Shown here: in pieces, positions 14,412-24,672 of the stretch
Position numbering within the stretch: the stretch's first letter is position 1
Layout of the letters: each line of letters opens with the position of its first letter
Assembly (NCBI RefSeq): GCF_002754375.1
Contig: NZ_PEFF01000001.1
Span: forward strand, 372,001 to 436,000
DNA: 64,000 nucleotides
Direction: 5' to 3'
From: Variovorax sp. 54
GTDB taxonomy: Bacteria > Pseudomonadota > Gammaproteobacteria > Burkholderiales > Burkholderiaceae_C
The notes under the pieces: generated by a model
Database searches by the model: none
What the model saw: only the letters and a program-made list of their open reading frames with translations
What the model was told of the DNA's origin: nothing
Program-made: the position numbers and the translations under genes

Positions 14412-15553
14412 TGAGCGAACCCACCCAAGGCTTCGGCGCCGCCTGGCGCGACACGGCGCTCGATGTGTTGCGCGACAAGGGCGTGCTGCTGATCATGCTG
14501 CTCGCGCCCATCATCTACGGCTTCTTCTACCCCTGGCCCTACGGCACGCAAGCCGTCACGCGGGTGCCGGTGGCGGTGGTCGATCAGGACCACAGCGGGC
14601 TGTCGCGGCAGATCGCGCGCTTCGCGATGGCCAACCCGCGGCTCGACGTGCGCATGGTCACGTCCGACGTGCACGAGGCGCAGCAGGCGCTGTGGCGCGG
14701 CGAGATCGAAGGCTATGCACTGCTGCCGCAAGACCTCAAGCGCAACGTGCTGCGCGGCACGCCGGCGGTGGTGACCATCGAGGGCAACGGCGCCTATGCG
14801 CTGCTGAACAAGGCGGTGCTGTACGGCTTCTCGGAGGCGGTGGGCACGGTGTCGGCCGGTGTCGAGATCCGCAAGCTGCAGGCCGGCGGCCAGAGCGCCA
14901 TCCAGGCGGCACGCAGCCGCAGCCCGCTCAACACGCAGCTCGTGCCGCTGTTCAATCCGACCGAAGGCTACGGCAGCTACGTGGTGCCGGCGGTGGCGCT
15001 GTTGATCCTCCAGCAGACGCTGCTGATGGGCGCCGCGATGCTGGCCGGCACCTGGGCCGAGGCCCGTCGCCTGCGCACGGGCATGGGCGCCTGGCTCGGG
15101 CGGCTGGGCGCGCTGTCGGGCTTCGGCGTGCTGAGCGGCGTGTTCTATTTCGGCTGGGTGTTCTTCTTGCAGGACTATCCGCGCGGCGGCAATCCGTTCG
15201 GGGCGCTGGTGCTGCTGCTGTTCTACGTGCCCGCGATCTGCGTGCTTGGCCTGCTGCTGGGCTGCTGGTTCCGCGACCGCGAGCGTGCGCTGCAGGTGCT
15301 GCTGTTCACTGCGCTGCCGATGGCGTTTCTCTCGGGCTTCTCTTGGCCCGTCGAGGCCCTGCCCGCACCGCTGCAGGCGCTGCGCTGGCTGTTCCCGAGC
15401 ACAGCAGGCATCCAGGCCTCACTGCGGCTCAACCAGATGGGCGCGCCGCTGCATGACGTGCTGCCTTACCTGGGGGCGCTGGCGGCGATGGTGGTGGCGG
15501 GCCTGCTGGTGCTGTGGATCGCGGCCACGCCGCGCAAGGCCAAGCGAGCTTAG
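14411..15553 (+). CDS. ABC-2 type permease, second subunit
   Basis: A 380-residue paralogue of the preceding permease, with the same plan: N-terminal helix ending in IIYGFFYPWPYG, periplasmic domain with VAVVDQDHSGLSRQIARFAM, and a C-terminal membrane domain of about six helices. It starts on the stop codon of the first permease. No ATPase gene follows; instead a TetR gene converges, its TAA overlapping this gene's stop. The energy source must come from an ATPase encoded elsewhere or from another mechanism. Confidence 0.88.
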   Translation: MSEPTQGFGAAWRDTALDVLRDKGVLLIMLLAPIIYGFFYPWPYGTQAVTRVPVAVVDQDHSGLSRQIARFAMANPRLDVRMVTSDVHEAQQALWRGEIEGYALLPQDLKRNVLRGTPAVVTIEGNGAYALLNKAVLYGFSEAVGTVSAGVEIRKLQAGGQSAIQAARSRSPLNTQLVPLFNPTEGYGSYVVPAVALLILQQTLLMGAAMLAGTWAEARRLRTGMGAWLGRLGALSGFGVLSGVFYFGWVFFLQDYPRGGNPFGALVLLLFYVPAICVLGLLLGCWFRDRERALQVLLFTALPMAFLSGFSWPVEALPAPLQALRWLFPSTAGIQASLRLNQMGAPLHDVLPYLGALAAMVVAGLLVLWIAATPRKAKRA

Positions 15554-16179
15554 CGTCGGCTGTCGGCCGCCACGGCGCGCACCAGCCGCGTGGCCGGCGC
15601 CACCAGCTCTCGCAGGTCGCCCACGCGGTCCTGCTCGATAGCCTGCAGCACCAGTTCGTTGATGCCGCCCACCACCGTCATCGCCATCTGGCTGCTGAGG
15701 TGCGCCGCGGGTGTCTCACCTGACTCGCTGCTGTTGATCGCCACCTGGATGAAGTTGGCGATCTCGCCATTCACGCGCCGCCGCGCCGCCAGGCCCGGCA
15801 GGCCCAGCCCGAGGATTTCGACGAACAGCGTGCGCAGCAGCACCGGGTCTTGCGCGAGGTAGTCCATGTACGCGGTCATCGCCTGCTCCACCTGCGTGTG
15901 CCAGGGCTGGGCCGGGTCGAAGGCCTCGCTCACGGCCTGCAGGCCGAGCCGGCTGGCCGTTTCGTACAGCGCGATCAGGCACTCGGTCTTGGTGCTGAAG
16001 TGCTCGTAGAACGTGCGCCGCGACACGGCCGCCTCGCGCACGATGTCGGCGATGGTGGTGTCTGCGTAGCCCTTGGCCGCCACGGCATGCGCCATGCCCT
16101 GCAGCAGCCGCGTGTAGTGCTCGCTCGGCGCGCCTTCGGCGGCATCGGGCGTGGCGGGTTTGTCGATGGTGGCAGTCAT
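15550..16179 (-). CDS. TetR/AcrR family transcriptional regulator
   Basis: A 209-residue repressor. The helix-turn-helix is at about residues 22-67 (HAVAAKGYADTTIADIVREA, then VSRRTFYEHFSTKTECLIAL). The C-terminal helical ligand domain has no obvious ligand signature. It is divergent from the ferritin-like hydrolase gene, and the 118-base gap holds two matching inverted repeats that are likely its operators. It is convergent with the exporter operon, sharing stop-codon bases, so that operon is a less likely direct target. Confidence 0.92.
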   Translation of the reverse strand: MTATIDKPATPDAAEGAPSEHYTRLLQGMAHAVAAKGYADTTIADIVREAAVSRRTFYEHFSTKTECLIALYETASRLGLQAVSEAFDPAQPWHTQVEQAMTAYMDYLAQDPVLLRTLFVEILGLGLPGLAARRRVNGEIANFIQVAINSSESGETPAAHLSSQMAMTVVGGINELVLQAIEQDRVGDLRELVAPATRLVRAVAADSRR

Positions 16180-16203
16180 GTGCGATTCATTTTCCTACGC
16201 CTT

Positions 16204-16219
16204 GGTACTTGACAGTACC
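16204..16219. promoter_or_regulatory. Operator copy 1 (GGTAC-N6-GTACC), overlapping a TTGACA -35
   Basis: A perfect inverted repeat, GGTACTTGACAGTACC, in the TetR/hydrolase divergent gap. The spacer contains TTGACA at 16209-16214, a consensus -35 hexamer reading toward the hydrolase gene, so a bound repressor would block it. No good -10 is visible at the ideal spacing. Confidence 0.65.
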
Positions 16220-16247
16220 AATTCACAATTGCACCATGGCGGCACGC

Positions 16248-16263
16248 GGTACGGAGTTGTACC
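16248..16263. promoter_or_regulatory. Operator copy 2 (GGTAC-N6-GTACC)
   Basis: A second inverted repeat with identical half-sites and identical 6-base spacing, starting 44 bases after the first (about four helical turns). Two copies in one short gap strongly suggest binding sites for the adjacent TetR protein. Confidence 0.65.
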
Positions 16264-16297
16264 AACTTTTGCCCCCGACCTCAGGAATTGCCATCCC

Positions 16298-17134
16298 ATG
16301 ACCGAACTCGTTGTCCGCCGCCTGCTGATCGATCTGCAACCGCCCTTCTCGCGCGACTGGTGCGGCGGCGATGCCTTTTCGACGGCTTTCTTCAACGCCC
16401 TGTCGATGAGCTTCCCCTTCGGCGAGCAGTTCTTCATCGACGCCGTGCGCGACGCCATGGCCACGCTGCCGCCCGAGCTGCAGGAGCGCTACCGCGCCGA
16501 CGTGCGCGGCTTCATCGGACAGGAGGCGACGCACCGGCGCATCCATTCGCTGTTCAACGCGCACCTCGACCAGCAGGGCCTGGTCGACCGCTGGACCGCG
16601 CGCGCCAGTCAGCGCATGGAACTGATGGACGGCGCCGATCCGCGCCACGCGCTGGCCGTGACGGCCGCCACCGAGCACTTCACGGCCATGTTCGCCGAGT
16701 GGCTGCTGGCCCGCCCCGAGATCCTGGACGGCGCCGAGCCCCGGCTGCGCACGATGTGGCTGTGGCACAGCGCGGAAGAGCTGGAGCACAAGAGCGTCGC
16801 CTTCGACATCTACAAGGCCGCGGGCGGCTCCGACGAATGGCGCACGCGCTGGTTCCGCCGCGTGACGGTGATGTTCCTCGGCGACCTGATGCGCCAGACG
16901 GTCGACAACCTGCGGCATGAAAAGCAATTGTGGAAGTGGGCCACCTGGAAGAGCGCCGCGCGCATCCTGCTGGGCCGCGGCGGCCTGCTGCGGGGCAATC
17001 TCGCAGGCTGGCGCCAGTACCTGCGCAGCGACTTCCACCCCGACCAGCAGGACAGCAGCCTCTCGGCGCGCTGGCTGGCCGACAACGGCGCGCAGTTCAC
17101 GCCGGTGGGCGCTGCTGTGGCAACGTCGGCCTGA
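16298..17134 (+). CDS. ferritin-like metal-dependent hydrolase family protein (PF10118 type)
   Basis: A 278-residue protein of the family annotated as predicted metal-dependent hydrolases. Conserved pieces are FPFGEQFFIDAVRDAM, FIGQEATHRRIHSLFN, TEHFTA and HSAEELEHKSVAFDIY; the spaced Glu/His pairs are those expected of a four-helix di-iron site. Some members act in aromatic or lipid oxidation, but no substrate is certain. The ATG at 16298 follows AGGAATTG. Expression is probably controlled by the divergent TetR protein, suggesting a response to a small lipophilic compound. Confidence 0.85.
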   Translation: MTELVVRRLLIDLQPPFSRDWCGGDAFSTAFFNALSMSFPFGEQFFIDAVRDAMATLPPELQERYRADVRGFIGQEATHRRIHSLFNAHLDQQGLVDRWTARASQRMELMDGADPRHALAVTAATEHFTAMFAEWLLARPEILDGAEPRLRTMWLWHSAEELEHKSVAFDIYKAAGGSDEWRTRWFRRVTVMFLGDLMRQTVDNLRHEKQLWKWATWKSAARILLGRGGLLRGNLAGWRQYLRSDFHPDQQDSSLSARWLADNGAQFTPVGAAVATSA

Positions 17135-17958: not shown

Positions 17959-18207
17959 TCAGCTCGACGATGCTTCAGCCTCGAGGGCCTCGTCGAGCGC
18001 CTTGCACGACGGTGCGCAAACGGTCTGCGACTTGCCCAGCACCTGGCGCGTGCGCAGCTGCGACCGCACGCGGTGCTTGCCGCACATGAAGCAGGACATC
18101 GTGGCCCCGCTGAACGACGCCGAGGCGCGGAACGGAGAGCCCGGCGCCTTCGATTTGTAGCGCAGCCCGTCCGCCACCACTGCCGTTTTCACTTCACCCT
18201 TGGCCAT
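17959..18207 (-). CDS. small four-cysteine protein, 82 residues
   Basis: An unrecognised small protein. It has a CxxC pair (SCFMCGKHR, about residues 52-60) and a CxxxC pair (TVCAPSCK, about 75-82 before the acidic tail), a pattern compatible with a zinc ribbon, with many basic residues between. No signal peptide. The ATG at 18207 is chosen because the upstream in-frame codons overlap the preceding gene much further. It overlaps the previous gene by 14 bases and is the last gene of the lipid operon. Nucleic-acid binding is possible but not shown. Confidence 0.7.
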   Translation of the reverse strand: MAKGEVKTAVVADGLRYKSKAPGSPFRASASFSGATMSCFMCGKHRVRSQLRTRQVLGKSQTVCAPSCKALDEALEAEASSS

Positions 18208-18553
18208 GCATCTTGTCCTTGTTCGATTCGTCACCGCGCATGGCGCGGGCAATGGCTTCCCTGGCTGCGCCTTCGGCGGCCAGGGAAACGTCCAGCGCCG
18301 AGCGGCAAAGGCCGGCGTGCTGGTAATTCATATTTTCGTAGACCTCGGAGGCGGCCGGATAGGCATCGAGCAGTTGGCCCAGTTCGGCACCGGCTTCGAC
18401 GTCTTCGAATTCATGCACCAGGTGCTCGACCACCGAGCGGTACTGCTCGGCGCCAACCGGCACGGCGCTGTGCTCAAGCCTCTCCAGCAGTTGAGCCAGT
18501 ACGTGGGTCACTGCCAGATCGGTCTTGGGGGACGGATTTCGGGTCGTGTTCAT
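18194..18553 (-). CDS. small helical protein of unknown function, 119 residues
   Basis: An unrecognised acidic, helical, soluble protein starting MNTTRNPSPKTDLAVTHVL; an ATG 9 bases upstream (18562) is an alternative start. Sequence such as LLERLEHSAVPVGAEQYRSV and VVEHLVHEFEDVEAGAELGQ predicts a bundle of helices, with YENMNYQHAGLCRSALDVSL toward the end. No catalytic motif is visible. It lies between the 303-residue protein and the four-cysteine protein in the lipid operon. A carrier or accessory role is possible, but there is no phosphopantetheine DSL motif. Confidence 0.65.
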   Translation of the reverse strand: MNTTRNPSPKTDLAVTHVLAQLLERLEHSAVPVGAEQYRSVVEHLVHEFEDVEAGAELGQLLDAYPAASEVYENMNYQHAGLCRSALDVSLAAEGAAREAIARAMRGDESNKDKMHGQG

Positions 18554-18579
18554 GGTTTGCATGTGGGGACAGCATACCC

Positions 18580-19491
18580 CTATGCAAGGGGCGGGTCGCG
18601 CGGAAGTGTCTCTGCCGACATGGCTTCCCGCGCCGCGCGCATGCGCTGGAGCAGGCTGTGAAGCATTTCGGTCGACAACCCGTGGATCACCAGCCGGTGC
18701 CCGGCCCGCAAGGTCGACAGCGGCACCAGCGGATGCTTGTTGTTGACCAGGATCAGGTGCTCGGGCGCGTTCAGGATCGTCGCCGCGTAGATGCCGATCG
18801 TTTCGTCCAGTTGCAAGGAGTTGGCCGCGCGCCAGAAATCGTTGTCGGTCAGCATCAGCTGGTACAGCGGCGTGAACAGCTCGATGGCGCTTTGCAGGTC
18901 GAGAAAATTCAGCTTGCCCTGGGGCATGTCTTCCAGCCGCAGCGCCGGCGACTGGATCATCGAGAAATCGACCTGCTCGCCCTTGCACAGCGCCAGCCCC
19001 TTGTCGCGCAACGCTTTGTTCAGCCGGATCACGAAGTTGAACAAATTCAGGTCGTGCTTCAGGAACATCTCGTCCTTCAGCGCGTCGATGTCGGCCGGCT
19101 CCAGCGGCGACGTGCCCACGGGCGCGGGCGAGTTGCGCCCGATGAACGCCAGCACCTGCGAGCCCAGGTGAAAGTGCCGCAGGATCAGCCAGTTGGCTTC
19201 GGGCGACACGAAGCGCTTGAGCCCCCACGCCAGGAAGCGGTGCAGCAGCATCGAATGCGACCAGTTGCGCGGCACGAACACCTTCACGATCTGGATCAGG
19301 ATGATCGTCAGCCGCGCGATCGGCCGCAGGAACGGCAGCAGGTACTGGCGCGACGCCGAGCTCGAATCGGCCAGCCACGCGGACTTGACGTCGTCGGGCA
19401 GCGGCGTGCTCTGGTCGAGGTACAGCGCCAGCCACGGGCTAGGGTCGCGCTCGTCGTGGGCTTGCGTCAAAAATTCAGGCGTTCGGCTCAT
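18580..19491 (-). CDS. conserved hypothetical protein of the lipid operon, 303 residues
   Basis: I do not recognise the family. The N-terminal third has a hydrophobic, possibly membrane-associated segment (ARLTIILIQIVKVFVPRNW, about residues 58-77) followed by FVSPEANWLILRHFHLGSQV. The rest is soluble and helical, with KDEMFLKHDLNLFNFVIRLN. Scattered His, Glu and Asp could bind metal, but no family motif is evident. Its start overlaps the end of the KAS-oxidase fusion gene by 17 bases, so production is probably coupled to that enzyme and it may act with it. Confidence 0.75.
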   Translation of the reverse strand: MSRTPEFLTQAHDERDPSPWLALYLDQSTPLPDDVKSAWLADSSSASRQYLLPFLRPIARLTIILIQIVKVFVPRNWSHSMLLHRFLAWGLKRFVSPEANWLILRHFHLGSQVLAFIGRNSPAPVGTSPLEPADIDALKDEMFLKHDLNLFNFVIRLNKALRDKGLALCKGEQVDFSMIQSPALRLEDMPQGKLNFLDLQSAIELFTPLYQLMLTDNDFWRAANSLQLDETIGIYAATILNAPEHLILVNNKHPLVPLSTLRAGHRLVIHGLSTEMLHSLLQRMRAAREAMSAETLPRDPPLA

Positions 19492-21394
19492 GAGGCATTC
19501 GTTCGGTGATGTGCTGGAACTGCATCAGGTACAGCGCCGCCGTGTGGCGCGCGGTGTCGGCAATCTGGCGGGCGGCGCGGGCCTGCCCTTCCACGGCCAT
19601 CACCATCTCGACCGCCGCGAGCCAGCGGTTCAGGTGGTGCTCGTCGTTGTGGCCGTGGTACTCGAGGAAACGGAAGGCTTCGGGCGGCAGCTTCAGGCTG
19701 GCCTTGAGCAGCGGCAGCAGCGCCGGCACGATGCGCTGGCCCGTGCCTTCGATGATGTAGATCGCGCCCAAGAGGCCAATCGGGTCGCGCGTGGCGGCCA
19801 GTCCGTGCAGGTAGGCGTTGAGCGCCTCGCCGCCCGGGTTGCGGCGCAACTCGTCGATCGACTCGACCGTGCCGCCGGCCTTGCGGTAGTCGCTGAAGAG
19901 AATGTTGAAGTCGTTCTGCTCCTCGCCCGCGTGCACGTCGATCAGTGACGACAGCATGCGGTACGGCGCGCTCAGCGAGGCGGCACCCTCGCGCATCCAC
20001 AGGCTGCCTTCGCGCACCTGCGGCACCCACTGCTCCATCCAGTTCAGGTAGTCGGGCACGGCAAAACGGCGCTCGCGGATCTGACGGATCAGCGGCGTGC
20101 GCCACACGCGCGAGCGGTAGTCGTGCCAGATGGCGGCCAGCTCCGTCAGCAAGGCGCCCAGGCCTTCGGGCGCGGCGGCCGGGTCGTGCGGCGGCGCGAT
20201 GACGAGGTCGTCGTCGGGCACCACAGCCGCGGCGCGGGGCGCGATCACGACCGGCGCCGCATCGACGGCCTCGACCTCCAGCAGCATGTACGCCGCCATG
20301 AAGCGCCCCGACTCCGGCACGTAGCAGAAGATCTGCTCGCCCGGCTTCAGCGCCTTGGTGTGCAGAAACTCCGCCAGCATCACGAGGATCGACGCCGCGC
20401 CGGTGTTGCCGCGCCACGCCAGGTTGCTCCACCAGCGCTCGCGCGGAATCGCCAGATCGGCCTTGGCCATCAGGTCTTCGACCACCGGGATGAATTTTTC
20501 CGACGAGTAGTGGCACAGGAAATGGTCGACCCGCTTCGGATCGACCCAGCCGTCGCGCACCAGCCCCGCGTACTCGTGGATGCCGATGTCGAACAGGTGC
20601 GGCAAGAGGCGAATGTCCTGGCGCAGCGACAGCGCACCGGCCGCCTCGGCTTCGGCCCATGAGCCGAAATCGAGGTGCCCGCGCGCACGGTCTTCGGTGA
20701 GGCCGAGCTGCATGCACACCGGGTAGTCGCCCGAGAAGGCGCGCTGGTGCACCCACTTCAGCTTCAAACGCAGCCCCGGCTTGCCGGCCAGCGCAGGCGT
20801 GCCGTCGGACAGCAGCAGCGCGCCCGCGCCATCGGACAGCATCCAGCGCAGAAAGTGCGAGTCGAAATCGGTCTCGTAGCCGCGCGCGGCGAAGCGCGAG
20901 CGCTTGAACAGGCGCGACGGCATTTCGCTGGCCACCGCCAGCGCCGAGCGGTGCGCGCCCAGCTCGATGCCTTGCGCGGCCGTCTGGATCGCCGACACAC
21001 CGGCCGCGCAGATGCCGTGGACCGAATGCGTTTCCATCGGCTGCGCCGCCAGTTCGCCCTGGATCATGTTGGCGAAGCCGGGCATCAGCGTGTCGCCGCC
21101 CGACGAGCCGCTGGCCAGCAGCGACACGCGCGACAGCTCGGCACCGCCGCGCTGCAGGCAGTCGCGGATCGCGCCGGCCGCCAGTTGCGCATTGGTGTGG
21201 CGCGTCACGCCCTCTTCGTCGATCGCGTAGTGCCGCGTGAGGATGCCGTTCTCGGCCAGGATGCGGCGCTTGATGCGCTCGGACATGCGGTTGAGCGGCG
21301 CGATGTACGCGTCCATGCGGTCGTTGGGAACAGGCTCGCCGGGCATGAAATAGCCGGCGCTTTCGAGGTACACGCGTTGGAATGAAACGGGCAT
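19475..21394 (-). CDS. KAS III-like condensing enzyme fused to a haem-oxygenase-like di-iron oxidase domain
   Basis: A 639-residue fusion. Residues 1-380 are a thiolase-fold ketoacyl synthase III-type domain with an intact triad: Cys129 (HGICAAG), His295 (LCHYSS) and Asn330 (GNTGAAS). After a Pro/Ala-rich linker (about 380-412), residues about 415-630 match the haem-oxygenase-like domain of iron-containing redox enzymes such as UndA relatives, with candidate ligands Glu454, His488, Glu491/492, Glu549 and the His580-x3-Asp584 pair. Such domains oxidise acids, amines or fatty acyl chains with O2. The ATG at 21394 follows the desaturase stop by 4 bases. Likely substrate: a fatty acyl thioester, by inference. 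Confidence 0.88.
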   Translation of the reverse strand: MPVSFQRVYLESAGYFMPGEPVPNDRMDAYIAPLNRMSERIKRRILAENGILTRHYAIDEEGVTRHTNAQLAAGAIRDCLQRGGAELSRVSLLASGSSGGDTLMPGFANMIQGELAAQPMETHSVHGICAAGVSAIQTAAQGIELGAHRSALAVASEMPSRLFKRSRFAARGYETDFDSHFLRWMLSDGAGALLLSDGTPALAGKPGLRLKLKWVHQRAFSGDYPVCMQLGLTEDRARGHLDFGSWAEAEAAGALSLRQDIRLLPHLFDIGIHEYAGLVRDGWVDPKRVDHFLCHYSSEKFIPVVEDLMAKADLAIPRERWWSNLAWRGNTGAASILVMLAEFLHTKALKPGEQIFCYVPESGRFMAAYMLLEVEAVDAAPVVIAPRAAAVVPDDDLVIAPPHDPAAAPEGLGALLTELAAIWHDYRSRVWRTPLIRQIRERRFAVPDYLNWMEQWVPQVREGSLWMREGAASLSAPYRMLSSLIDVHAGEEQNDFNILFSDYRKAGGTVESIDELRRNPGGEALNAYLHGLAATRDPIGLLGAIYIIEGTGQRIVPALLPLLKASLKLPPEAFRFLEYHGHNDEHHLNRWLAAVEMVMAVEGQARAARQIADTARHTAALYLMQFQHITERMPHEPNA

Positions 21395-21398
21395 GGGT

Positions 21399-22343
21399 TC
21401 AGGCAATAGGTGAATCGGGAGGCATCAGCGAGCGGCTGCGAAAACGCGGCCACACGGTCCCCAGCACGAAGACGCGCACCATGTACGGCACCAGCCCGCC
21501 CTCGTTGAGCGCGGGTGCCACCTGCGCGCGGTAGCGCGTGTGATGCAGGTGCGTGAGCTCGGACCAATGGGCATGCGGGTTCTCGTGGTGTGCGGTGTGC
21601 AGGCCAATGTTGAACAGCAAGGGGTTCACCAGCCCCTCGAAATTGCGGGCGTAGTTCAGCTGGCTACCGCGGGTATCGCCGGGTGCCTCCTTGCGCGGCG
21701 TCTTGCGGCCGTCGGCGTGCGCGTGTTGCAGGTAGTTGGTGGCCAGCAGCCAGTGCAGGCCGTGCAGTTGCGGCACGATCACGAAGATCAATGCCTTGCG
21801 CCAGTCGACCGCCAGCAACACGGTCCAGCTGAGCAGCCACAGCGCGTACTGCGCCATGCAGTAGCGCCAGGCGCCGCGGTGGTGCCGGTGCAGCCGCGCG
21901 AGCCAGCCGACGAACACCGGCATCAGCACCCACACCGCCTGGAACGGGTGCAGCAGGTAGCCCCACAGATGGTTGGTGTCGCCGCCGAAGCGGTAGGTGC
22001 GCACCACGTCCTTCGGCCCATGGCGATGGCGGTGGTGGTTGGCCACGTGCGCGGGCCAGAAGACGAAGGTCGGGTGGCCCTGCAGCAGCGTGATCCAGAA
22101 GTCGGTCAGCCGGTTCATGCGCCGACCGCGCCACATGCGCAGGTGCACGTGGTTGTGATGGATCACGCCGATGCCGAGCGTGAGAAACAGCATCAGCGCA
22201 TACAGCACCCCCTGGAAGCCATGCACCCACTGCCACGCCGCCAGTGCAGGCAAGGCGACGAGGTAGGCGAGGCTTTGCCAGTCGCGCCAATGGCGCAGCC
22301 TCGGCAGCCGATGGCGCGCGGCGTCAGGCGGTCGTGGCGCCAT
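21399..22343 (-). CDS. membrane fatty acid desaturase family protein
   Basis: A 314-residue membrane di-iron enzyme. Histidine boxes typical of PF00487 are present: HHNHVH (about residue 62), HVANHHRHRH (about 96) and HTAHHENPHAHW near the C-terminus, with four hydrophobic segments between. Members desaturate or hydroxylate acyl chains, carotenoids or alkanes using O2; the substrate here is unknown. Its start overlaps the preceding hydroxylase gene by 20 bases, and the KAS-oxidase fusion begins 4 bases after its stop, so all three are likely made together. Confidence 0.88.
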   Translation of the reverse strand: MAPRPPDAARHRLPRLRHWRDWQSLAYLVALPALAAWQWVHGFQGVLYALMLFLTLGIGVIHHNHVHLRMWRGRRMNRLTDFWITLLQGHPTFVFWPAHVANHHRHRHGPKDVVRTYRFGGDTNHLWGYLLHPFQAVWVLMPVFVGWLARLHRHHRGAWRYCMAQYALWLLSWTVLLAVDWRKALIFVIVPQLHGLHWLLATNYLQHAHADGRKTPRKEAPGDTRGSQLNYARNFEGLVNPLLFNIGLHTAHHENPHAHWSELTHLHHTRYRAQVAPALNEGGLVPYMVRVFVLGTVWPRFRSRSLMPPDSPIA

Positions 22344-23097
22344 GCTTCTTTCGAAAAGCCTGGAACAACGGCTCGGCCGCATCGGCCGCGATGCGCGTGC
22401 GGAACAGCCGGTCCATGAAGGTGAACTGAAAGCCGTAGTTGCCGTTGTGCACGGCATGGTGCAGGTGGTGCCGGCGGCTCGCGGCGAACCAGTGGCTGTA
22501 CGACACGCCGGGCACGAAGTCGTAGTTCGAATGCCCGACGCAGTTGAAGAACAGACTGAAGACCGGCACCGACGCCAGCGACCAGAAGCTGAAGTCGTGC
22601 AGCACCATCGGCAGCAGGATCACGTTGCCGAGCATCAGCGCCTCGATCGGGTGAAAGCTGTACGTGGCCCACGGCGTGGTCACGAACGAGCGGTGGTGCG
22701 GGCCGTGGAAACGGCGCAGCCAGCGCGTGTGCAGCAGCCGGTGGTTGAGCCAGAAATGCACGTCGTTCCACACCGCGAGCACGAGGATTTCGACGCCGAT
22801 GCGGCGCCAGCCCGCGTCGGGCTCGAGCCGTGCCCAGCCCAGCTGCAGCAGCCCCCACGGAAACACCATGCCCAGCCCGAAGATCAGCACCGAGATGCCC
22901 GATTGCGTCAGTTCGCGCCGCAGCTGGCCGGGCTGCAAGGGTCGCGGGTCGAGCGCGCGCCCGATGTGCAACGCCGGCAGCACCCGCTTCGTGAGCAGCC
23001 AGGTGAGTGCGCCGAAACCCAGGTAGATGCCGCCGAAAAAAAGCAGGCCCCACAGCATGACCTGCGGGGCCGAAAGAGAAGTGAAGGTCTGCGCCAT
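22324..23097 (-). CDS. sterol desaturase / fatty acid hydroxylase family protein
   Basis: A 257-residue integral membrane protein of PF04116. The His motifs are in order: HFWLNHRLLH (about residue 113), HGPHHRSF, HPIEAL and RHHLHHAVHNGNYGF (about 205-225), which bind two irons. About four membrane spans. Family members hydroxylate fatty acids or lipids (for example at C2 or in ornithine lipids) or desaturate sterols. It lies 9 bases after the phospholipase-like lipoprotein gene and overlaps the desaturase gene, giving the operon two distinct membrane lipid oxidases. Confidence 0.9.
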   Translation of the reverse strand: MAQTFTSLSAPQVMLWGLLFFGGIYLGFGALTWLLTKRVLPALHIGRALDPRPLQPGQLRRELTQSGISVLIFGLGMVFPWGLLQLGWARLEPDAGWRRIGVEILVLAVWNDVHFWLNHRLLHTRWLRRFHGPHHRSFVTTPWATYSFHPIEALMLGNVILLPMVLHDFSFWSLASVPVFSLFFNCVGHSNYDFVPGVSYSHWFAASRRHHLHHAVHNGNYGFQFTFMDRLFRTRIAADAAEPLFQAFRKKHGATTA

Positions 23098-23106
23098 CCC
23101 CCGAGG

Positions 23107-24672
23107 CTACAACAGCATCTCGGGCACCAGCGGAGAGATCAGGGTGTTGTACAGGCGCTGGAAGAAACCCGACTCGGGTTCCGAGGTGAGGATCATCTCT
23201 TTCTCGCCATCGTTCGTGAGCCATTCGAGCGTGCCGCCCTCCTTCGACAGCCGCAGCCGGTACGAGTTCTGCAGCTTGCTCACATGGATGATGCGCAGCA
23301 TCTCGCGCGCGAGTTGCGGGTTGTCGACCACCACGCCCATCTCGGTGTTCTGGCTGGCCGAGCGCGGGTCGAGGTTCATCGAGCCGATGAAGATGCGCGT
23401 CTTGTCGATGGCGGCGGTCTTGGCGTGCAGCCGGCCCAGCGAGTTGCCGAAGCTGCCGAAACGCATGCTCGCGGTGGTGCGCTGCGGGCTCAGTTCGTAC
23501 AGGTCGGCGCCGCCTTTGAGTAGGCGCTCGCGGTAGCGCGCATAGCCGGTGTGCACCAGCGGCTCGTCATTGGCGGCCAGCGAATTGGTCAGCAGCGTGA
23601 GCTTGACCTTGCGCCTGGCCAGGTCCTCGAAGGCCGCCATGCCGCGCTCGCCGGGCACGAGGTAGGGCGAGGTCAGGTCGACCTCGGTCTTGGCGTCGAG
23701 CAGCAGCGCCCAGACCTTCATCGTCACGCTGGTGGCAATGGCGTCTTCGGCCGTCAGCGTCGTGGGCTTGGAGGGCGGGTCGGCGATGGCGCGTGCCTCG
23801 CCCCACAGCAGGCCCATGCGGCCGCCGTCGAGCTCTTCGGCGATCGGGCCGTAGCCGAGGATGTCGGAGGGCGGCAGCACGACCTTCGGCGGCGGCCCGG
23901 CCATGCCGACCTCGTCGTCGAAGGTCGCGGCGCCCGCCTCTTTGCGCACGATGTCGGCAATGGGCCAGATTTGGTCGCTGTTCCAGTAGGCGTCGAAGAT
24001 GCTCTCGAGCTGCGGCACGACCTCGCCGACCACCAGCGCGTCCATGTCGATGAAGTTCTGCGCCTCGCTCAGCACGAAATACTCGTCGGCGATGTTGCGC
24101 CCGCCCACCACCGCCATCGCGCCGTCGGCGATGAACAGCTTGTTGTGCATGCGGTGGTTGAGCCGGTGGATGTCGAAGATCGACACCACGAAGCGCGAGA
24201 GAAAGCCATCGCGCGCGCAGCAGAACGGGTTGAAGAGGCGCACCGACACATTCGGCGTTTCGGACAGCGCCAGCAAGAGCTGCTGGCTCTTCACCGTGTA
24301 CAGGTCGTCCACCAGCACCCGCACCTTCACGCCGCGCGCCGCCGCTTCGCGCAGCGTGCGCAGCAGCAGCCGGCCGGTGGCGTCGTTCTCGAGCTGGTAG
24401 TACTGCACCACCAGCGAGCGCTCGGCGCGCTGCGCGAGCTGCAGGCGCGCGTCGAGCGAGTACACGCCCAGCGGCATCAGCCGGAAACCCGAGTGCTCGC
24501 CGGGCGGCGTGGAGGCCGCGGCGATCTTCGCGAGCGCGGTGCCCGGGTCGGCCGTGGCCGCGTGCTCGGCCGGGCGTTCGCGCGCCGGCGGCAACGAACC
24601 GCACGCGCCGAGCAATGCCAGCAGCACGCCGGCCAGCGCCGTGCGCAAGAAAGACCGGGCCCAGGCATTCAT
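23107..24672 (-). CDS. phospholipase D-like lipoprotein (cardiolipin synthase family)
   Basis: A 521-residue protein with a lipoprotein signal (LLALLGAC; Cys near residue 24) and two HKD motifs: HNKLFIADGAMAVVGGRN in the first half and HAKTAAIDKTRIFIGSMN in the second, both complete. Enzymes of this superfamily transfer phosphatidyl groups or hydrolyse phosphodiesters. The lipid anchor places it in the periplasm. A good Shine-Dalgarno (AGAGGA) precedes the ATG. It is the first gene of the minus-strand lipid operon and divergent from the peroxiredoxin; it may supply or modify the phospholipid the operon enzymes act on. Confidence 0.9.
   Translation of the reverse strand: MNAWARSFLRTALAGVLLALLGACGSLPPARERPAEHAATADPGTALAKIAAASTPPGEHSGFRLMPLGVYSLDARLQLAQRAERSLVVQYYQLENDATGRLLLRTLREAAARGVKVRVLVDDLYTVKSQQLLLALSETPNVSVRLFNPFCCARDGFLSRFVVSIFDIHRLNHRMHNKLFIADGAMAVVGGRNIADEYFVLSEAQNFIDMDALVVGEVVPQLESIFDAYWNSDQIWPIADIVRKEAGAATFDDEVGMAGPPPKVVLPPSDILGYGPIAEELDGGRMGLLWGEARAIADPPSKPTTLTAEDAIATSVTMKVWALLLDAKTEVDLTSPYLVPGERGMAAFEDLARRKVKLTLLTNSLAANDEPLVHTGYARYRERLLKGGADLYELSPQRTTASMRFGSFGNSLGRLHAKTAAIDKTRIFIGSMNLDPRSASQNTEMGVVVDNPQLAREMLRIIHVSKLQNSYRLRLSKEGGTLEWLTNDGEKEMILTSEPESGFFQRLYNTLISPLVPEMLL

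Follow-up and report, generated by a model that had tools for sequence, protein, structure and literature searches.

A conserved four-gene cassette built around a ketosynthase fused to a haem-oxygenase-like (PF14518) domain in Variovorax and other Burkholderiales

Ketosynthases of the DarB/StlD type serve the dialkylresorcinol, cyclohexanedione and stilbene pathways (DarABC), and haem-oxygenase-like dimetal oxidases (HDOs) such as UndA, BesC, SznF and CADD are helical PF14518 proteins with a common Glu, Glu, His-x3-Asp-x2-His pattern. According to the accessible part of a review of the HDOs, their ligand set usually comprises three histidines and three carboxylates (3H/3C), and a 3H/4C subset exists (PMC13108848). 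In Variovorax sp. 54, a ketosynthase and an HDO domain are joined in one polypeptide. The gene lies in the stretch of DNA analysed here, hereafter the window (64,000 nucleotides; contig NZ_PEFF01000001.1, positions 372,001 to 436,000), and belongs to a conserved unit of four genes encoding a membrane fatty acid hydroxylase (FAH), a membrane fatty acid desaturase (FAD), the ketosynthase::HDO fusion and a DUF6999 protein. Within this genome of 6,642,361 bases, the unit forms the middle of a string of seven minus-strand open reading frames at window positions 17959–24672:

23107..24672, minus strand: PLD-like lipoprotein, 521 residues (PLDc_2, 124 bits); Variovorax neighbour upstream of the cassette, outside the conserved unit
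22324..23097, minus strand: FAH, 257 residues (PF04116, 78 bits, E 1e-21); core gene 1
21399..22343, minus strand: FAD, 314 residues (PF00487, 72 bits, E 7e-20); core gene 2
19475..21406, minus strand: ketosynthase::HDO fusion, probable start ATG at 21394; StlD/DarB-like ketosynthase at residues ~1–385, a linker, then HDO domain (PF14518) at ~405–635; core gene 3
18580..19491, minus strand: DUF6999 protein, 303 residues (PF22523, 438 bits, E 1e-131); core gene 4
18194..18562, minus strand: 122-residue protein; Variovorax neighbour downstream, outside the conserved unit
17959..18207, minus strand: 82-residue protein, TRASH/metal-binding-like below threshold; Variovorax neighbour, outside the conserved unit

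A sequence-only reading of this DNA had described seven minus-strand genes spaced by 20 bases or less, and all seven open reading frames are present, with gaps or overlaps of −20 to +17. Read 5′ to 3′ along the string, the spacings are +9 (PLD–FAH), −20 (FAH–FAD), +4 (FAD–fusion), −17 (fusion–DUF6999), +17 (DUF6999–122-residue protein) and −14 (122- to 82-residue protein); the FAD–fusion gap is +4 with the ATG start at 21394 and −8 with a TTG start at 21406. The PLD, hydroxylase, desaturase, KAS III and haem-oxygenase-like domains named in that reading were all recovered, as matches to PLDc_2, PF04116, PF00487, ACP_syn_III_C and PF14518 that each exceed their own cut-off. Two labels needed adjustment. 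One of three proteins called unrecognised is the DUF6999 protein; the other two keep the description, as no family exceeded its cut-off for the 122-residue protein in the domain scan and the sole match of the 82-residue protein, metal-binding/TRASH-like, fell below threshold (E 0.004). The label KAS III is supported by ACP_syn_III_C (33 bits), but the nearest ketosynthases are StlD/DarB rather than FabH.

Occurrence of the unit was examined in a sample of 300 Burkholderiales genomes (297 high-quality, 140 genera), searched twice on what is apparently the same draw. DUF6999 was found in 13 genomes and the full-length fusion in the same 13, which represent 10 genera and are not 13 independent events. 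Six more genomes carry only a shorter DarB-like ketosynthase, without DUF6999. Fusion and DUF6999 genes are adjacent in all 12 flanks fetched, and all four genes occur in 10 of these or, counting the window, in 11 of the 13 genomes with the fusion. The exceptions are G195, which lacks the desaturase, and G135, where the hydroxylase is missing and the desaturase seems broken.

For a larger set, GTDB species genomes were scanned with a DUF6999 alignment; this gave 476 coding stretches, and the best 80 were used, a choice biased to close relatives of the window. The cassette is complete in 76 of these 80 named loci, with identical gene order and strand in all 76; FAH is present in 78 and FAD in 77. 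The four incomplete loci are L130 (cut by a contig end), L132 (without FAH) and L124 and L125 (without FAD and fusion). This 80, like the 99 used below for the HDO domain, counts loci and not independent species, some genomes being present twice (e.g. G032, Root473). The hosts among the 80 include plant-associated and soil Variovorax, Achromobacter and Bordetella. The middle four genes keep their arrangement far beyond chance, and FAH–FAD–ketosynthase::HDO–DUF6999 is firmly one conserved unit. The co-occurrence of the fusion with both membrane oxidases and the 303-residue protein, proposed earlier as a check, is borne out across genera and families, with that protein a true member, as is the idea of a dedicated unit that combines carbon–carbon condensation with three predicted O2-using iron enzymes.

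The outer three genes behave differently. The fusion occurs in 22 of the 37 Variovorax genomes of a genus sample (one at a contig end), and 12 of the 15 fusion-less genomes were inspected at their best PLD locus (G012, G022 and G036 were left out). In 10 of the 12, the PLD, 122-residue and 82-residue genes are contiguous without the cassette, although at one of these empty sites (L186) the match to the 122-residue gene is split in two pieces; in the remaining two, neither small gene turned up within 1.5 kb of PLD. Near the 80 named cassettes, the PLD, 122-residue and 82-residue genes occur 40, 38 and 40 times, respectively, and their tight packing with the cassette was seen in Variovorax loci only. 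None of the three was seen in the fetched flanks of the Achromobacter, Bordetella, Pseudorhodoferax and Pigmentiphaga cassettes. Relatives of the PLD-like lipoprotein are also numerous: 12 Variovorax genomes have 3–10 matches apiece (E 1e-50), 35–84% identical to the window copy. The outer three genes are independent of the four-gene cassette and are its older Variovorax neighbours.

These observations bear directly on the proposed seven-gene lipid operon. The short distances between the genes, in the window as at many Variovorax loci, would fit a single phospholipid-modifying pathway with PLD and the small genes as members; the contiguity of the outer genes in fusion-less genomes, their absence from the flanks seen in other genera and the multiplicity of PLD relatives make it very improbable. 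The suggestion of a modified phospholipid as product, which leaned on the PLD protein, loses its main support with the exclusion of that protein from the unit. Since the PLD string is contiguous without the cassette, and since the cassette occupies another site in Variovorax G035 and is placed differently relative to PLD in L121, L123 and L128, it is read as a mobile unit that seems to travel as a whole between bacteria. The G035 cassette groups with Pseudorhodoferax in the cassette tree (97/96). At the window site, gain is likelier than loss, and the four genes would have landed inside the older PLD/122-residue/82-residue string. The nearest neighbour of the window copy in the cassette tree is Variovorax sp. 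Root473; the nearest named database entry for the fusion is labelled Acidovorax cavernicola (98%), followed by Variovorax entries.

A gene for a PF10118 'metal-dependent hydrolase' and an opposite-strand TetR-type regulator with weak similarity to the fatty acid regulators FadR and FasR also lie near the window cassette (15550–17134). The hydrolase gene is found near 30 of the 80 named cassette loci, all Variovorax, and G043 has a 47% relative ~8 kb from its cassette.

Outside Burkholderiales, six genomes of other orders or classes with a DUF6999 match were inspected. In four alpha- or gammaproteobacterial genomes (G515, G778, G621 and G937), separate ketosynthase, HDO and DUF6999 genes are adjacent. 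The same three separate, adjacent genes occur on a megaplasmid of Pseudoalteromonas THAF3, annotated as beta-ketoacyl-ACP synthase III, iron-containing redox enzyme family protein and hypothetical protein. In G814 (L176), the DUF6999 match is confined to a C-terminal fragment containing a stop codon, and no ketosynthase lies in 20 kb. The deeper core is ketosynthase, HDO and DUF6999. Two proteins encoded separately in some lineages but as a single fusion in others are usually functional partners, and the occurrence of ketosynthase and HDO as separate genes elsewhere and as a fusion here is the most telling hint at an HDO that works on the ketosynthase product.

Two further genes were noted at these distant loci. 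In two Gammaproteobacteria, the position ahead of the ketosynthase that FAH/FAD would take is filled by a small His-rich membrane protein (L083:12240-12806, minus strand, and L228:5436-5993 of THAF3). The two copies are 64% identical and share H32, H49, H83, H88, H106, H108 and H151; the L083 copy has no Pfam match, and the protein is perhaps another membrane metal enzyme. In G515, DUF6999 is followed by an 1133-residue protein (L081:6096-9497, minus strand) with transporter, acyltransferase and AMP-binding acyl-activating domains, presumably resembling an Aas/LplT fusion. It is a possible hint that the product or acyl groups meet phospholipids.

The ketosynthase domain shares the Cys-His-Asn triad of DarB and StlD, with C133, H299 and N334 kept in 25 of 25 aligned ketosynthases; H299 aligns to the residue that is Ala in the StlD structure 5gk2 (an H302A mutant). 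In structure comparison, StlD scores ~6 Z units above OleA. Relative to DarB/StlD, the domain differs in being fused to an HDO domain, and, unlike DarABC, the cassette comes without a carrier protein, none being found among ten window proteins scanned. The same genome also holds an ordinary darB-type locus (L090, G000:C1:5784001-5804000), whose DarB scores 588 bits on the NCBI StlD/DarB model NF005293. That locus includes a BtrH-like protein, ABC transporter parts, a carrier protein and a second ketosynthase, and resembles the Azoarcus dar locus. Of 17 genomes tested for a relative of the putative DarA of this genome, named by gene position only, 16 have none, and in the single exception the relative adjoins the other darB.

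The HDO domain passes the PF14518 cut-off (40.9 versus 28.9 bits), and its only convincing solved sequence relative is 3dde (E 2e-10), a TenA/THI-4-like structural-genomics protein of haem-oxygenase-like fold. In the predicted model of the fusion the HDO part is helical, and the structure match lists are filled by the ketosynthase domain. Among 99 loci with complete domains (L089, at a contig edge, was left out), H92, E96, D99, E127, E153, H184, D188 and H191 (domain numbering) are invariant. The first helix therefore reads ExxD in 99 of 99, whereas in 15 of 15 other PF14518 proteins the first-helix Glu is followed by His at the D99 site, either directly or past a short insertion. This comparison drew on 17 loci from related genomes, with rows required to show third-helix H-x3-D/E-x2-H; L219 and L227 yielded no row, and a wrong-strand row of L203 was disregarded. 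UndA, BesC, SznF and CADD likewise differ from the window domain, which has ExxD rather than ExxH, an invariant His four residues before Glu and a fused ketosynthase. In 3dde, the upstream His and the Glu are common to the window HDO, but His stands where this family has Asp, and the protein is stand-alone (239 residues). Simple mapping gives a 2H/4C ligand set (E96, D99, E153, H184, D188 and H191) rather than 3H/3C. From its position one turn earlier, H92 could replace the missing third histidine.

An alternative is that the ketosynthase gives a linear or pyrone-type product (an OleA-like head-to-head beta-keto acid, ketone or alpha-pyrone), which an UndA-like HDO would cleave or decarboxylate, giving an alkene, ketone or volatile, with FAH and FAD as tailoring enzymes. 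The closer structural match to StlD than to OleA speaks against it, as does the absence of UndA from the HDO's solved sequence relatives, with 3dde the sole convincing one; we judge it unlikely.

FAH carries the His-box motifs of PF04116, and H114, H119, H123, H131, H134, H135, H189, H210, H213 and H214 do not vary among the 7 sequences aligned. FAD carries the three His boxes of PF00487, with H63/65/67, H99/103/104/108 and H249/252/253 invariant in 6 of 6. As judged from these alignments, the predicted catalytic residues of ketosynthase, FAH and FAD are intact. Among the loci examined, FAH and FAD join the core in Burkholderiales only, which fits a tailoring role.

The DUF6999 protein matches model positions 1–275 of 275, a full-length match to a family here tied to a ketosynthase–HDO pair. 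Its AF2 model (10-sequence alignment) is all-helical, with pLDDT 83 and pTM 0.83, and found no solved-structure match. Invariant residues are H106, H146, D147, D198, D229, H270 and E275. DUF6999 and PF14518 matches are also present in a Caulobacter control genome.

The sequence-only reading knew of no characterised pathway with this gene set, and none emerged here: in the open-access literature searched, which covers few subscription papers, we found no description of the gene set, no ketosynthase–HDO fusion and no use of the term DUF6999. In the accessible part of the HDO review PMC13108848, the words 'fused' and 'ketosynth' are absent.

We favour the reading, at a little short of an even chance, that the cassette is a biosynthetic unit in which two acyl thioesters are condensed to a StlD/DarB-type ring, oxidised by the HDO and tailored on their chains. 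The ketosynthase would join two fatty acyl thioesters, most likely in StlD/DarB style to a 2,5-dialkylcyclohexane-1,3-dione-type ring; the thioesters would come from general fatty acid metabolism, no acyl carrier protein being encoded in the cassette. The fused HDO would take the nascent product and oxidise it with O2, by aromatisation, ring hydroxylation or oxidative decarboxylation, in place of the stand-alone aromatase DarA that dialkylresorcinol pathways use. DUF6999, to judge by its company with the ketosynthase–HDO pair across classes, would support a core step, and FAH and FAD, as membrane di-iron enzymes, would introduce hydroxyl groups and double bonds into the alkyl chains. A few oxidised dialkyl ring lipids would result, serving as signal, antioxidant or antimicrobial and not as bulk membrane lipid. 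We infer with good reason that the ketosynthase is an acyl-chain-condensing enzyme whose product the HDO acts on; the product class, oxidised dialkyl ring lipid, is a guess with some support.

Several observations weigh against this biosynthetic reading. The fusion scores 316 bits against the NF005293 cut-off of 450, and an unrooted tree of 25 rows separates 12 DarB/StlD from 13 HDO-linked ketosynthases on a branch supported at 100/100 (FabH was left out; L061, L062, L028 and L031 were in, with the reverse strand used for L031, both of whose strands are stop-free). Because the ketosynthase stands outside the DarB/StlD group and below the cut-off, its substrate and cyclisation may differ. One canonical ligand histidine is missing from the HDO, and the domain may for that reason be inactive or mononuclear. 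No family model matched the putative DarA. At the loci examined outside Burkholderiales, the core has neither an FAH nor an FAD homologue beside it, and insertion-site evidence alone cannot separate gain of the cassette from its loss. Finally, in G667 DUF6999 has no cassette partner within 20 kb, and in two related Variovorax (L124 and L125) FAH and DUF6999 persist back to back without desaturase or fusion, their frames open (w 0.11 and 0.13), so DUF6999 is not tied to the ketosynthase everywhere.

These last cases raise the alternative of two sub-systems, in which the ketosynthase–HDO(–FAD) part makes a metabolite, whereas DUF6999 and FAH have a different membrane lipid as their target and can persist by themselves. 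Purifying selection after loss in the two Variovorax would favour it, assuming one shared loss before their split. DUF6999 nevertheless lies beside ketosynthase–HDO in 13 of 13 Burkholderiales sample genomes and in four of the six others, there without an FAH homologue, and we consider two sub-systems distinctly improbable.

A bolder form of the biosynthetic reading, possible though rather doubtful, would have the cassette make a new class of oxidised lipid-like metabolite. Here the ketosynthase would hand its product to an HDO with ExxD and a displaced His, which would perform a reaction new to HDOs (the condensed product would undergo ring aromatisation or oxygenation), and DUF6999 would be a further enzyme of new fold, perhaps metal-dependent in view of its invariant residues.

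The correction of the seven-gene operon to a four-gene cassette leaves a unit that is clonable and testable. DUF6999 gains a genomic context, the ketosynthase–HDO pair. The cassette suggests that there is an HDO subfamily whose metal site is altered and which is placed directly behind a carbon–carbon bond-forming enzyme, and raises the question of whether an HDO can stand in for a DarA-type aromatase.

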